A stretch of DNA of 64,000 nt from Candidatus Azobacteroides sp. (lineage in GTDB: Bacteria > Bacteroidota > Bacteroidia > Bacteroidales > Azobacteroidaceae). The stretch lies in the NCBI GenBank assembly GCA_009778655.1, contig WRFZ01000178.1, positions 1 through 64,000 of the forward strand, given 5' to 3'. Both the position numbers and the translations under genes were made by a program. This document shows positions 1-4,787 of the stretch, piece after piece. Every line of letters starts with the position of its first letter. The stretch's first letter is position 1. Below the pieces are notes generated by a model that saw nothing but the letters and a program-made list of their open reading frames with translations, had not been told where the DNA came from and did not search any database.

Positions 1-192
1 TGCTAAAAAGAGAAAGTAAATGAATGGGACAACGAAAAGAGCCTGAATCACGCTTACATATTCGAATGCAGGAAATATCCACATTTTTAGGGCAAAAGCT
101 AAAAATAAGAATCCGCATCCCATCAATCCATTGATTATTCTTTTTTTCATCTTCTCGGAATATTTATTCAATTGTTTTTCGCCTATTATCAT
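1..192 (-). CDS. Small hydrophobic membrane protein, truncated at window edge (MIIGEKQLNKYSEKMKKRIINGLMGCGFLFLAFALKMWIFPAFEYVSVIQALFVVPFIYFLFLA...); position suggests possible immunity/accessory protein
   Basis: Manual translation of the minus strand from ATG at 192; open to the edge; two predicted hydrophobic segments; lies just downstream of two GG-leader peptide genes. Confidence 0.5.
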   Translation of the reverse strand, partial: MIIGEKQLNKYSEKMKKRIINGLMGCGFLFLAFALKMWIFPAFEYVSVIQALFVVPFIYFLFLA

Positions 193-253
193 ATATCTAT
201 AAATCAAGGATTGAATATAAAATCCAATCCTTGATTTATATAAACCGATTGTT

Positions 254-427
254 TTACAATAAGGGGACGTTAGCATCATTCAGAAGCATCTCTGCTTGTG
301 CAAACATACCAAATGCATAACCTGCGAGCCAACACACTGCTTCAGTTACTTCTGACGCCCCTCCATTTATATTTTCACATTCGCGTTGACTCAACTCAAT
401 TATTTCAAAATTACGATTTGTTTTCAT
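254..427 (-). CDS. Double-glycine leader peptide precursor (57 aa): MKTNRNFEIIELSQRECENINGG|ASEVTEAVCWLAGYAFGMFAQAEMLLNDANVPLL
   Basis: Manual translation; not in the ORF track because it is under 60 aa; leader ends in ...CENINGG typical of C39-processed peptides; adjacent to C39 ABC exporter. Confidence 0.75.
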   Translation of the reverse strand: MKTNRNFEIIELSQRECENINGGASEVTEAVCWLAGYAFGMFAQAEMLLNDANVPLL

Positions 428-464
428 AACGATTGATTTTTATGAATAAATTACTTAATTAAAA

Positions 465-650
465 CTAATTAAAAGACGCATTGTATCCTGCCGCAAACGC
501 AGCACCCGATGAAGAAGGGTTTAAGCATATATCAATCGCAATAGCGAGTAAAACTGCTCCAATCGGGCCCCACACGCCACCATTCACGTTTCCCAATTCG
601 GCATTTTCCATTTCCTTTACGCCATAGGCGTTCAAATCTAAATTTTTCAT
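465..650 (-). CDS. Double-glycine leader peptide precursor (61 aa), bacteriocin-like: leader MKNLDLNAYGVKEMENAELGNVNGG, core VWGPIGAVLLAIAIDICLNPSSSGAAFAAGYNASFN
   Basis: ELxNVNGG leader, small Gly/Ala-rich hydrophobic core; adjacent to C39 ABC exporter. Confidence 0.8.
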   Translation of the reverse strand: MKNLDLNAYGVKEMENAELGNVNGGVWGPIGAVLLAIAIDICLNPSSSGAAFAAGYNASFN

Positions 651-657
651 ACGACTG

Positions 658-688
658 CAAAATTAATTAATTAATACTATATTTCAAA
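658..688 (-). promoter_or_regulatory. Bacteroidetes-type promoter for the 61-aa peptide gene: TTTG-N19-TAATTTTG
   Basis: Plus strand reads caaaatta (658-665) and caaa (685-688), i.e. -7 TAnnTTTG and -33 TTTG on the minus strand with 19-nt spacing. Confidence 0.6.
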
Positions 689-765
689 CAAATTTTGTTT
701 AAAAATCGCCCGAATTTTTCGCGTGCACTCAAATAACCCGTTTGATGCTGCAAATTTAAGCGCAT

Positions 766-1083
766 TCACGGCACAAAAAAAGCCGTAAATGAAAAATTCG
801 TCAAAAATGTAATTCCCGCCGAAATATTTTTTTGATCTTTGTCGGATAAGCGTTGGAAAGTGCAGGAAATGTCAATTTCAAACGGCTCTTTGTAATAATA
901 GGTTTCGTTCCGCCGGGAGTATTCAATCGGCGCTCCCAAGTCTTTCATTTCAACGATAATTTCCCGTAAATGCCGTTCACTGATTCTCATTCGTCGGGCA
1001 AATTCTTCGGGCGTACCTGTACACGAGGCATTAATTAATCGGTGGATTCGTTGCAACAGTTCGATTTGTTTGAATAGGATCAT
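766..1083 (-). CDS. HTH-domain regulator-like protein (105 aa), exporter-locus associated
   Basis: N-terminal HTH (LLQRIHRLINASCTGTPEEFARRMRISERHLREIIVEMKDLGAPIEYSRRNETYYY) resembling HTH_11/DeoR-like winged helix. Confidence 0.65.
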   Translation of the reverse strand: MILFKQIELLQRIHRLINASCTGTPEEFARRMRISERHLREIIVEMKDLGAPIEYSRRNETYYYKEPFEIDISCTFQRLSDKDQKNISAGITFLTNFSFTAFFVP

Positions 1084-1118
1084 ATGAATTATGAATTATA
1101 AATTATGAATTATGAATT
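1084..1118. repeat. AT-rich tandem repeat of a GAATTAT-like heptamer
   Basis: Sequence atgaattatgaattataaattatgaattatgaatt between two genes; same motif recurs at 36178, 36364 and 50095. Confidence 0.8.
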
Positions 1119-3276
1119 AAAGCGTATTTGTTTGGTTGTTCCATAGTTTCCAATACATTCCTTGGGCTTCCGACAGTTGGGCGTGGGTACCGGTTTCCAC
1201 TACTTTCCCTTCTTGTAAGACAATAATATTATCGGCATGCTTAACGGTGCTTAACCTGTGAGCAATGATAACGATTGTTTTCCCTTCCCGGGCCAAATCC
1301 GTTAAAGTCTGTTTGACGTATTGTTCCGAAAGAGTATCCAAGGAGGAAGTCGCTTCGTCGAAAATCAGTAAATCGGGGTCTTTGTACAAAGCACGGGCAA
1401 TGGCAATTCGTTGCCGTTCGCCGCCGGAAAGCGATGCGCCATGCTCGCCGATAAACGTCCCGTAAGATTGAGGCAGGTTTTCGATAAATTCCCGGATGCC
1501 CAATCGTTCGCACAATGCGATGATTTTTTTCATGTCCGGTTCAAAATCGCCCAATGCAATGTTTTCGGTAACGGTTCCGGCAAACAGTTCAATTTGCTGA
1601 GGTACCGAACCGATTCGTTGCCGCAGACTTTCGTTACTGATTTGCGATAAATTGTAGTTCCCGATATAAATATTTCCCGATCGAATGGGATACAGATTTT
1701 GCAACAGTGAAACCAAAGTGGTTTTTCCGGAGCCGCTTTCTCCGACCACGGCTGTCGTTTGCCCTTTCCGAATAGTTAAAGTCAAAGAATCGAACACTTG
1801 TTTCCGTGAACCGTAGCGAAAAGCAACCGCTTGGAAATGAATGTCGCCGACCTCCGCTTTTTCCAATCGAATTTTTTGCGAATCGTCTTCTTCCCGTTCC
1901 AAATCCAGAATCTGAAACAAGCGGTCGGCGGCAATCAACGCATCCTGTATGGTTTGATTGGAAGCGATCAGTTTGCCGACCGGTCCAAGTACGTATCCGA
2001 CCAATGAATAGAAGAGCATTAACGTACCCGGCGTTATTTCTTGATGAATAACCAAGTTACTTCCCGCCCACAATACGGCAATCGTTATTCCCGTTGAAAC
2101 CAATTCGATTCCATTATTGGCAAGAATGGATCCGTAAATGCTTTGATACGTGTTTTTTAATACGTTAACAAAACGAAATTCCGTTTTCAGATTGGCAAAT
2201 GTTTCAACACCGAATTGTTTGATTGTCGAAACCGAATGGAGCGATTCCACCAAATGAGCTTCCAAATCCGCTCCGCTTTCCATGATTTTCCGTTGGTATT
2301 TTTTATTCAAGCGGTTAAAAAGATAGTAAATCAAGAGAAACAAAGGAGCGGATAACAAAGTGATTATCGCTAATTTCCAAGAAAAAATCAGCATGACACC
2401 GATGGTAAACAGTAAAATTAAAAAATTGACTGCCAAATCCAAAGAAACGTTGTTGATAAATACCCGAATTTTCACGGCGTCGTTGATACGGGAAATAATT
2501 TCCCCGACACGCATCGTATCAAAAAAAGACTGAGGTAAAGTAAGCAAGTGCTTGTAATAGCCCAGTATCAGGGAAGCATCTATCCGTTGTCCGGTTTGCA
2601 ATGCCAAAACGCTTTTCATCACGCCGATAAATATTCGCATGACAAGAATCAAGAGCATCACGATACTCATCAGGTTCAATAAATTCACATTCTGATCCGC
2701 TAATACATAATCGGTAATCTTTCCGACATAAACGGACGTAGAAAGTCCGAGGATACTGTAAATAATCGCGCCGAATAGGGCTTGCGTCATAACGCTCTGG
2801 TGCGGTCGTATCAAATCAATAAAGCTTCGTAAAGCGCTCTTTTTTTGATTTCCTCTTTGAAAAGTTTCGTTCGGAAGCATCAATATCAAAACGCCGGTCC
2901 ATTCTTTTTTAAATTCTTCGTGCGTCTTTTTATGCAATTTCCCGTCGCTCGGATCCATTACCGTAATCGTTTGATCTGTGACCTTGCAAATGACGACAAA
3001 ATGTTGCAATTGCTCTTTGACAATGACATGGGCAATCGCCGGTTTGGGAATTTCTTTTAAACATTCATACGGCCCCTTAACTCCTTTGGCTTCAAAACCC
3101 AATTTTTGAGCGGCTTCGATCATTCCCAAGACGTTGGTTCCTTTTTGGTCGGTAAAAGCGTACTGACGAATGCGGGCAATCGGCATTTTCAATCCGTAAT
3201 GAGCGGCAACCGAAGCCAAGCAAGCGGCGCCGCAATCGGTACTGTCGTGTTGTTTTATTTGAATACCTTTTTTCAT
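1117..3276 (-). CDS. Peptidase-domain-containing ABC transporter (C39 bacteriocin-processing exporter)
   Basis: N-terminal C39 motif QHDSTDCGAACLASVAAHYG, HFVV and DPSDG; ABC TM region; Walker A GESGSGKTT, signature LSGGERQR. Confidence 0.95.
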   Translation of the reverse strand: MKKGIQIKQHDSTDCGAACLASVAAHYGLKMPIARIRQYAFTDQKGTNVLGMIEAAQKLGFEAKGVKGPYECLKEIPKPAIAHVIVKEQLQHFVVICKVTDQTITVMDPSDGKLHKKTHEEFKKEWTGVLILMLPNETFQRGNQKKSALRSFIDLIRPHQSVMTQALFGAIIYSILGLSTSVYVGKITDYVLADQNVNLLNLMSIVMLLILVMRIFIGVMKSVLALQTGQRIDASLILGYYKHLLTLPQSFFDTMRVGEIISRINDAVKIRVFINNVSLDLAVNFLILLFTIGVMLIFSWKLAIITLLSAPLFLLIYYLFNRLNKKYQRKIMESGADLEAHLVESLHSVSTIKQFGVETFANLKTEFRFVNVLKNTYQSIYGSILANNGIELVSTGITIAVLWAGSNLVIHQEITPGTLMLFYSLVGYVLGPVGKLIASNQTIQDALIAADRLFQILDLEREEDDSQKIRLEKAEVGDIHFQAVAFRYGSRKQVFDSLTLTIRKGQTTAVVGESGSGKTTLVSLLQNLYPIRSGNIYIGNYNLSQISNESLRQRIGSVPQQIELFAGTVTENIALGDFEPDMKKIIALCERLGIREFIENLPQSYGTFIGEHGASLSGGERQRIAIARALYKDPDLLIFDEATSSLDTLSEQYVKQTLTDLAREGKTIVIIAHRLSTVKHADNIIVLQEGKVVETGTHAQLSEAQGMYWKLWNNQTNTL

Positions 3277-3294
3277 TTTTTATTATCTTGTTTT

Positions 3295-4452
3295 CTATTC
3301 TTCCTTTTGGTTTTGCGTCGGATTCATCCAATCGTCCATTTTTTGATACAGGCAATCCAGCAACGATCGTCTTGTAATCCGGAAATGCGCATTCACCGTC
3401 ATTCCCTTTTTCAATAAACCTTTTACACCGTTTTTTCGTATTAAGTAACTCCTGTCCATGCTGCATTTGACTTTGTAGTAGAACTTATTTCCCGTATTGT
3501 CCGTCAAAAAATCGGAGGATATATCCGTTACTTTTCCGGAGATGCTTCCCCATTCATTGTAATTGAATGAACCGACTTGAATGTTTACCGGCATATTCGT
3601 ACTGATATAACCGATATTGGAAGGGGAAACATCAATTTCGGCATACAGCGTGGAATCGGGACTGACAACCGCCAACAAACTGCCGGATTGAATCATGCTG
3701 CCACGATAAATCCCGCTAAACTGGTCTAAAGTTCCGTTTACCAGACTGACAATCACATAACTGTCTTTTTCTTTCAACTGCTGTTTCAATGAATTGGTCA
3801 TTTCTTCCAAAGAATTGGTATAGGAGTTTAGATCATTTTGCCATTGACTGATTCGGTCGTTTTGCAGAGAAGCCGAGGCATTCCGGTCCTTATCATATTC
3901 GTAACGGTAATTTTCGTATTCTTCGGCGGAAATAACTCCTTTTTCAAACAAGATTTGATTTCGTTCCAAATCTTGTTGGGATTTGGCAAGATTCGTCTCC
4001 TGTTCCTGTTTATGCCGGATAAACAGGGCGTATTCCTGTCGGCGGCTTTCCGAAGCAAAGGAATCGGGCTTTAAGCCTTTGGATAGAAAAGTCAAATCGC
4101 TGATATGTTCCCGCAAATCCCGGATACGTTTTTTCTGATATTCGATTTGAAAATCCGGACTCGTTTGAAGAAAAGTTAAAATCGTGTCGCCTTGACGAAG
4201 CGTTTGTCCTTCCTTGACATAGATAGAATCAATCCGTTCCGTAATACTTGATTTAATTTCCGTCTTTTCACTTATCGGGCGGATAATGCCGGCGTCTTGT
4301 ACCGATATATCCACATAAACAAAAGGCAGAGCGCTGATAGCGAGTACAATGAAAGCGATTACAAGCAGGTAGATTTTCCGGGAGGAAGTAACGTATTTGC
4401 TAAGGTACGTGTCAATTCCGTTTAGAATTAACTCAGAGGGTAGTATATTCAT
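3295..4452 (-). CDS. HlyD family secretion/periplasmic adaptor protein
   Basis: Single N-terminal TM, coiled-coil and barrel-sandwich regions typical of HlyD; immediately upstream of the exporter. Confidence 0.9.
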   Translation of the reverse strand: MNILPSELILNGIDTYLSKYVTSSRKIYLLVIAFIVLAISALPFVYVDISVQDAGIIRPISEKTEIKSSITERIDSIYVKEGQTLRQGDTILTFLQTSPDFQIEYQKKRIRDLREHISDLTFLSKGLKPDSFASESRRQEYALFIRHKQEQETNLAKSQQDLERNQILFEKGVISAEEYENYRYEYDKDRNASASLQNDRISQWQNDLNSYTNSLEEMTNSLKQQLKEKDSYVIVSLVNGTLDQFSGIYRGSMIQSGSLLAVVSPDSTLYAEIDVSPSNIGYISTNMPVNIQVGSFNYNEWGSISGKVTDISSDFLTDNTGNKFYYKVKCSMDRSYLIRKNGVKGLLKKGMTVNAHFRITRRSLLDCLYQKMDDWMNPTQNQKEE

Positions 4453-4502
4453 AAGTTAAAAAATCATGCTTTCAAGTCCCGAAAAAGCAATTTTTAAAAA
4501 TA

Positions 4503-4665
4503 ATAAAGCGTGGGACTATAACTTTATTCGCTTTCGAGGTCTTAGGATACCATTGCTACAAATAGAGTAAGCCCACGCCGTGAGGCGTGAGCGCCGACTA
4601 CTTACTCTTGTAGCTTTTTGAAATTTCCTAAGTTTCGAAAGCAAAAGTAAAAGCTAACGCTTTAT
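4503..4665. other. Long nested stem-loop (163 nt): structured RNA or MITE-like element
   Basis: Nested complementary segments: 4503-4511/4657-4665, 4521-4525/4644-4648, 4530-4537/4635-4642, 4541-4546/4627-4632, 4555-4571/4601-4614 (one 3-nt bulge), 4574-4579/4584-4589 with GTGA loop. Confidence 0.7.
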
Positions 4666-4787
4666 CAAATATGTCTCACTTATATAAAGGCTTTTTACAT
4701 ATTCATTCTTTTTTAATTATTTTTATATTTGAATGAGCCGATACAAAGCTCTTGTGTTTGCAAAAGTACATTTTTTTTTGATATATG

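Follow-up and report, generated by a model that had tools for sequence, protein, structure and literature searches.

At the left end of a 64,000-nucleotide stretch of Candidatus Azobacteroides sp. DNA (the window, which begins at base 1 of the 65,443-bp contig WRFZ01000178.1, or C178, in a 2.9-Mb genome bin of 182 contigs), the minus strand encodes, in this order, an HlyD-type adaptor, a peptidase-C39 ATP-binding cassette (ABC) exporter, a small helix-turn-helix (HTH) protein, two short peptides (A and B) and a membrane protein that is cut by the contig end. The locus is probably a class IIb-like two-peptide bacteriocin operon, in which the HTH regulator ends in a segment resembling a peptide leader and would be bound or clipped by the C39 domain of the neighbouring exporter. 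The class IIb-like part of that reading is drawn from tandem precursors in sister loci, from the enrichment of GxxxG motifs in their cores, and from the Rce1/Abi-type genes that come next. The original prediction, which was made from the sequence of the window, had correctly placed all six features; it had taken the HTH protein for an ordinary regulator, and had overlooked both its unusual part (the double-glycine-like motif at its C-terminus) and a structured element located 5' of hlyD.

In the proposed mechanism, A and B would be made with double-glycine leaders that are removed by the C39 domain of the exporter, and their cores would leave the cell through the exporter and HlyD, together with a TolC encoded elsewhere. 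The two cores would then act jointly to kill competitors, as helices that pair within the competitors' membranes through small-residue, GxxxG-type faces, and the membrane protein at the contig edge would confer immunity. The HTH protein would control the promoter of the precursors, and the same C39 domain would bind or clip the leader-like C-terminus of this regulator, so that precursor expression would follow export capacity.

Two double-glycine precursors and their sister loci

The leaders of A and B end in GNVNGG and ENINGG, respectively, as anticipated in the predicted ending N-[VI]-N-G-G. By a simple leader score, A and B are the sole open reading frames (ORFs) with double-glycine leaders in the whole 64 kb, and shuffling of the 765-bp region produced a single leader ORF once in 2000 trials and never two; by chance standards, both precursors are therefore real. 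Each core contains a single Cys. Core B harbors a true GxxxG (GYAFG) and core A displays GxxxG-like spacing (AFAAG and GYNAS), which again corresponds to what had been predicted. A homologue of A is present in genome G005 (50% identity), and a tail motif, F..G[YW]N, is common to A and to sister cores of the A type; no close homologue of B was found among 60 relatives.

These two different and adjacent precursors, both with double-glycine leaders, share their locus with a C39 exporter and an accessory protein, as is expected of class IIb systems. The exporter scores above the NCBIfam cut-off for TIGR01193 (551 bits versus 524), and the positions of its catalytic Cys, His and Asp residues (in DCGAACL, HFVVI and DPSDG) are seemingly intact when judged by eye. 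Its orthologues in other Bacteroidales display 67-81% identity, and the closest of them (75-81%, full length) belong to uncultured Bacteroidia, Tannerella and Parabacteroides genomes, the isolate names of which suggest insect-gut samples.

Sister loci (identified here by L numbers) were collected across the Bacteroidota in two ways, by exporter and, separately, by HTH protein, and the same plan recurs among them, with tandem precursors beside an orthologous exporter. Of 73 HTH genes with leader-like tails, 25 are followed by two tandem precursors, 6 by three and 19 by one, and the remaining 23 have none downstream. The 59 cores of 28 multi-precursor loci contain 58 GxxxG sites, versus 24.1±4.6 after each core was shuffled, and show no enrichment of GxG, GxxG or GxxxxG (spacings 1, 2 and 4); an enrichment confined to GxxxG is what helix packing would give, and GxxxG or GxxxG-like motifs are general in class IIb (PMC6957408, PMC6382864). 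In 17 sister loci the precursors are followed directly by a gene for an Rce1-like protein (PF02517, above cut-off). E-x-x-x-R/Q-type and FxxxH patterns are kept in all 19 Rce1-like proteins that were inspected (18 above cut-off, and that of L025 just under it, at 22.3 versus 22.4 bits), and Abi proteins with this set of motifs are the immunity proteins of some class IIb two-peptide bacteriocins (PMC6957408). The closest relative of A, in L070, is likewise followed by an Rce1-like gene.

Several observations weigh against this reading. A strict GxxxG is missing from A, the edge fragment belongs to no recognisable family, and the number of precursors varies across sister loci from 0 to 3 or more. 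Furthermore, neither precursor reaches the TIGR03949 cut-off of 21.5 bits (A scores 18.4 and B 15.8), and the net charges of the cores are -1 (A) and -4 (B), in contrast to the mostly cationic peptides known from class IIb. Because of those sub-threshold scores and acidic cores, formal membership of class IIb is not claimed, and the locus is described as one that works like class IIb; the likeness proposed originally is strengthened by the tandem precursors, the GxxxG enrichment and the Abi/Rce1-like neighbours, and is qualified by the same two shortcomings.

The pairing of A with B appears likely. An unlikely alternative is that each acts independently, as a single-peptide bacteriocin or a decoy, and that the two use a common exporter: the range of sister precursor counts (0, 1, 2, 3 or more) and the repeated precursor-plus-Abi units of L070 would suit that arrangement, but two is the commonest non-zero number of precursors (25 of 50 loci), cores of the A type (with an F..G[YWF]N tail) and of the B type (with a GxxxG helix) often alternate, and the GxxxG motif is enriched among sister cores. 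That A, B or both are signalling peptides rather than toxins is very improbable, in spite of the ability of double-glycine peptides to act as pheromones and of two-component genes (as read from sequence) that adjoin the exporter in L027, L034 and L068, given that this locus has no sensor kinase, that Abi-type immunity genes follow the precursors in 17 sister loci, and that the cores change very rapidly from one close exporter to the next. A bacteriocin role is by far the more likely, and the original view that a signalling role was equally possible was too cautious for A and B in light of the tandem precursors, GxxxG motifs and Abi/Rce1-like genes. A modified product (a ribosomally synthesised and post-translationally modified peptide) was also considered, and was dropped because the locus encodes no modification enzyme.

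A winged-helix regulator with a leader-like C-terminus

An AlphaFold2 model of the HTH protein predicts a confident winged helix at approximately residues 1-65 and disorder after approximately residue 70 (pLDDT above 95 at residues 11-70 and below 60 from residue 81); its nearest folds, with weak E-values, are the N-terminal domains of NiaR and BirA. Among 26 exporter-linked homologues only T22, G23 and G90 are invariant, and the last of these closes a segment, LSxxExxxIx[GA]G, beyond which the tail cannot be aligned between clades. The C-terminus of the regulator carries a pattern resembling that recognised in C39 substrates: L at -12, S at -11, E or D at -8, I at -4 and [GA]G, followed by a variable tail. 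For the C39 domain LahT150, approximately the last 13 leader residues suffice, with contacts at -4, -7 and -12 (PMC6363468), and since so little of a leader is needed, such a domain could also read one that forms the C-terminus of a regulator.

The motif is present in 73 of 121 HTH homologues (61 with GG and 12 with AG), and their tails are mostly 10-30 residues in length; residues that are hydrophobic (or T) occupy position -12 in 91% of the family, -7 in 57% and -4 in 93%. When the 14 residues preceding [GA]G were scored on a profile of precursor leaders, their mean was +1.5, versus -20.9±1.0 for their own shuffles (z=22), and the score was far worse at every shift from -4 to +3. The only criteria for picking the segments were a [GA]G at a fixed spacing from the winged-HTH domain and a lenient residue requirement at -4.

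Linkage to exporters was counted in loci that were found through the HTH protein alone. A C39 exporter with HlyD lies within 5 kb of 22 of 36 HTH genes that encode the motif, versus 3 of 42 that do not (odds ratio 20, p=3e-7); the three motif-less cases comprise one gene interrupted by a contig end, one with a TAG immediately ahead of GG and one that is truncated. C39 exporters without HlyD show no linkage to the motif, and several HTH proteins with no exporter nearby end at or before GG. Two plasmids from a different class, which were found afterwards and were not used to find the pattern, display it with a full GG: on Aureibacter tunicatorum pAT7, an HTH protein ending in ...HINGG followed by STLRSFANAGHIFFNFS precedes TolC, HlyD and C39 genes, with six leader-type small ORFs, and on Persicobacter JZB09 Plasmid11, HlyD and C39 genes are followed by an HTH protein with ...LINGG and a further tail, two precursors and a 211-amino-acid ORF without a Pfam family. 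The HTH protein of a Bacteroides fragilis plasmid, where no exporter is nearby, has no GG. A search of a phage collection gave no match to the HTH protein.

Members of the same HTH family that lack a GG tail were also observed in L247, L249 and L081, in loci that contain a Cys-bearing or short GG peptide and ABC genes (accompanied in L247 and L249 by a C39 exporter without HlyD) and that resemble bacteroidetocin loci.

A number of points weigh against a functional link between this C-terminus and the exporter, or limit it. The leader profile was derived from ORFs that a leader score had already selected, hence its sharp consensus. When corrected for ancestry, the association between HTH motif and exporter is not significant, in a poorly resolved tree of 72 residues; the few independent pairs point in the expected direction, again without significance. 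Some motif-bearing HTH genes away from contig ends have no exporter within 5 kb. The site in the window is itself weak. A C39 leader is expected to be hydrophobic at -12, -7 and -4 and to end in GG, GA or GS; L at -12 and I at -4 fit this pattern but -7 is occupied by Q and AG replaces GG, and the regulator of this locus may be a poor C39 substrate. Finally, synonymous change is lower in the HTH tail than in the core (0.33 versus 0.57), and the tail codons overlap conserved promoter-like DNA with inverted repeats in this clade, so part of the tail conservation does not act at the peptide level. The idea that the tail is purely a peptide feature was weakened by that overlap and by the reduced synonymous change.

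One competing explanation, which is possible but doubtful, treats the [GA]G segment as the leftover linker helix of a WYL-type regulator, unrelated to the exporter. Long WYL-like relatives have a similarly patterned helix after the winged-HTH domain, and the window's own site, with AG and with Q at -7, would be compatible with such a remnant. Against this origin stand the general lack of [GA]G in the long relatives and in HTH proteins without a C39 and HlyD exporter, the separation from shuffled and shifted segments described above, and the full GG of the plasmid cases. An unlikely and bolder version of the coupling holds that the tail is exported as a pheromone: the C39 domain would cut after [GA]G, the tail would report density outside, and the winged-HTH domain would stay in the cell. 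In its favor, the protein is conserved up to the G and hypervariable beyond it, as are the precursors; tails of 10-30 residues are alike within clades; and a similar scheme, in which an N-terminal part is kept and a C-terminal part is exported, has been proposed for HetC (PMC10986499). Such a signal is opposed by the absence of a receptor gene from the locus, the overlap of the tail DNA with the promoter-like region, and an HTH protein (that of L119) that stops at GG and has no tail.

The likeliest role for the leader-like C-terminus is docking to, or clipping by, the exporter, which would tie precursor expression to free export capacity. The more general proposal, that a phylum-wide family of small winged-HTH proteins with a C-terminal leader and a variable tail would serve as substrates or docking partners of co-encoded C39 exporters, with exporter activity directly resetting the regulator and perhaps releasing its tail as a signal, is one to which we assign even chances.

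The immunity position and regulatory DNA and RNA elements

The features of the locus are collected in Table 1. The edge membrane protein lies where sister loci have their immunity gene, and is likely to be the immunity gene of this one; the immunity role proposed for it originally is consistent with its position and gains nothing from family assignment, as no family is recognisable. Its homologues in relatives are limited to weak partial matches, and it does not match a 111-amino-acid protein with four transmembrane (TM) segments at the same place in L024. Leftward extension of the contig, as had been suggested, did not complete the gene: when the first 250 bases were searched as DNA against the same assembly, no contig was seen to overlap them.

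Three further observations concern this region in other loci. Short Rce1-like proteins (156-177 amino acids), in which ETxxxQ replaces EExxxR, occur in L028 (9770-10270), L032, L065, L070, L074 and L207, and are possibly a non-proteolytic immunity subclass. In L068 (10135-10776) and L122 (7160-7759), the immunity position is occupied by a DUF3267 putative zincin peptidase instead of an Rce1-like protein. CarboxypepD_reg-like secreted proteins (approximately 355-630 amino acids, by eye) lie directly after or flank the precursors in L026, L029, L031, L070, L076 and L077.

The conserved stretch between the HTH gene and peptide A contains inverted repeats (TCAAA..TTTGA, TTTGAGTGCACGCAAA and AAACAA-AAT-TTGTTT) and promoter-like TAnnTTTG boxes, and 4 of its 23 predicted pairs display double changes. 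A version of this block, approximately 110 bp in length, is repeated before individual precursors in L070 (four copies), L074 (two), L077 (two) and L071, and is composed of TCAAAC..TTTGA, a GTGCAC/ACGCGCGT core, a TTGCAAGCAA-AAG-TTGCTTGCAA repeat and TAnnTTTG boxes; it is a candidate operator or 5' leader.

The structured element at the 5' end of the exporter operon spans approximately 190 nucleotides and has a fold z of -6.2, with compensatory changes in 19 of 35 predicted pairs over 19 sequences, in an alignment that was made by sequence and includes only loci found by similarity. It likewise lies 5' of hlyD in L024, L026, L029, L030, L031 and L032, and 5' of the other HTH gene of this genome (G000:C182, 48774-48970). 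Of 295 Bacteroidales genomes that were searched with a model of the element, 104 contain matches, often in multiple copies, and these are very often found 30-160 nucleotides ahead of genes that resemble, by eye, those of exported proteins or lipoproteins. No family in Rfam 15 matches the element or the locus, and the element is a candidate for a new cis-regulatory RNA family.

Table 1. Positions of the features of the locus in the window (nt, nucleotides; aa, amino acids)
Feature	Position (nt)	Strand	Details	Family match
Membrane protein, start, cut by contig end	1-192 (1-279 if the ORF starts at an earlier ATG)	-		no recognisable family
Precursor B, 57 aa	254-427	-	leader 1-23; core ASEVTEAVCWLAGYAFGMFAQAEMLLNDANVPLL (nt 257-358); G36xxxG40	TIGR03949, E=0.009
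Precursor A, 61 aa	465-650	-	leader 1-25; core VWGPIGAVLLAIAIDICLNPSSSGAAFAAGYNASFN (nt 468-575)	TIGR03949, E=0.0014
Conserved regulatory stretch, HTH to peptide A	651-768	-	mean column identity over 5 loci, 81%	
Winged-HTH regulator, 105 aa	766-1083	-	winged HTH, residues 1-65; leader-like segment, residues 77-90	
Leader-like segment and tail of HTH regulator	769-813 (tail)		L79 S80 D83 I87 A89 G90; tail ITFLTNFSFTAFFVP, residues 91-105	
Peptidase-C39 ABC exporter, 719 aa	1117-3276	-		TIGR01193; PF03412, 4e-37
HlyD-type periplasmic adaptor, 385 aa	3295-4452	-		PF13437, 9e-14; TIGR01843, 2e-38 (below its cut-off)
Structured 5' element of exporter operon	4470-4700 (model core 4526-4645)	-	18 nt before hlyD start	

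Relation to known systems

The locus resembles class IIb systems (lactococcin G, plantaricins EF, JK and S, and the lactobin A/cerein 7B family TIGR03949) in its two adjacent small precursors with double-glycine leaders, its C39 exporter and HlyD-like accessory protein, its GxxxG or GxxxG-like cores and, in sister loci, its Abi-type immunity genes. It differs from them in its Gram-negative host, tripartite exporter, acidic cores and scores below the family cut-off, in lacking three-component regulation, and in having an HTH protein with a leader-like tail. Bacteroidetocins (PMC6671954) also come from Bacteroidales and employ a double-glycine leader and a C39 exporter, and HTH proteins of the same family are found in loci (L247 and L249) that are apparently organised in a similar way; however, bacteroidetocins are single four-Cys peptides accompanied by a thiol oxidoreductase and a five-TM protein (PMC6671954), whereas this locus encodes two peptides with one Cys per core and an HlyD, the oxidoreductase and five-TM genes are absent from its sequenced part, and the HTH proteins of the bacteroidetocin-like loci have no GG tail.

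The peptidase-ABC exporter HetC of Nostoc (PMC10986499) offers a parallel in which a C39 exporter is tied to gene regulation, and the N-terminal part of its proposed substrate would act on regulation and the C-terminal part would be exported (PMC10986499), to which the HTH protein described here can be likened; HetC belongs to an unrelated system, and in the present locus the regulator itself is visible as the candidate substrate. Winged-helix regulators of the HTH_11/WYL type (PF08279, with NiaR and BirA N-terminal domains similar by fold) share the same fold, and differ in that a short, disordered, leader-like tail replaces their ligand domain in this protein.

In the literature searched, no description was found of an unmodified two-peptide bacteriocin in Bacteroidota, though the plan recurs across the phylum, nor of a leader-tailed regulator, which is not proof of its absence; the latter would be new in principle. 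Canonical versions of the arrangement are found on closed plasmids (Aureibacter tunicatorum pAT7 and Persicobacter JZB09 Plasmid11) and in hosts that can be cultured, Parabacteroides sp. Marseille-P3160 among them. If the proposal is true, a leader-tailed regulator would represent a simple coupling of toxin synthesis to export capacity in a Gram-negative producer, and a one-protein feedback loop that links peptide export and transcription.

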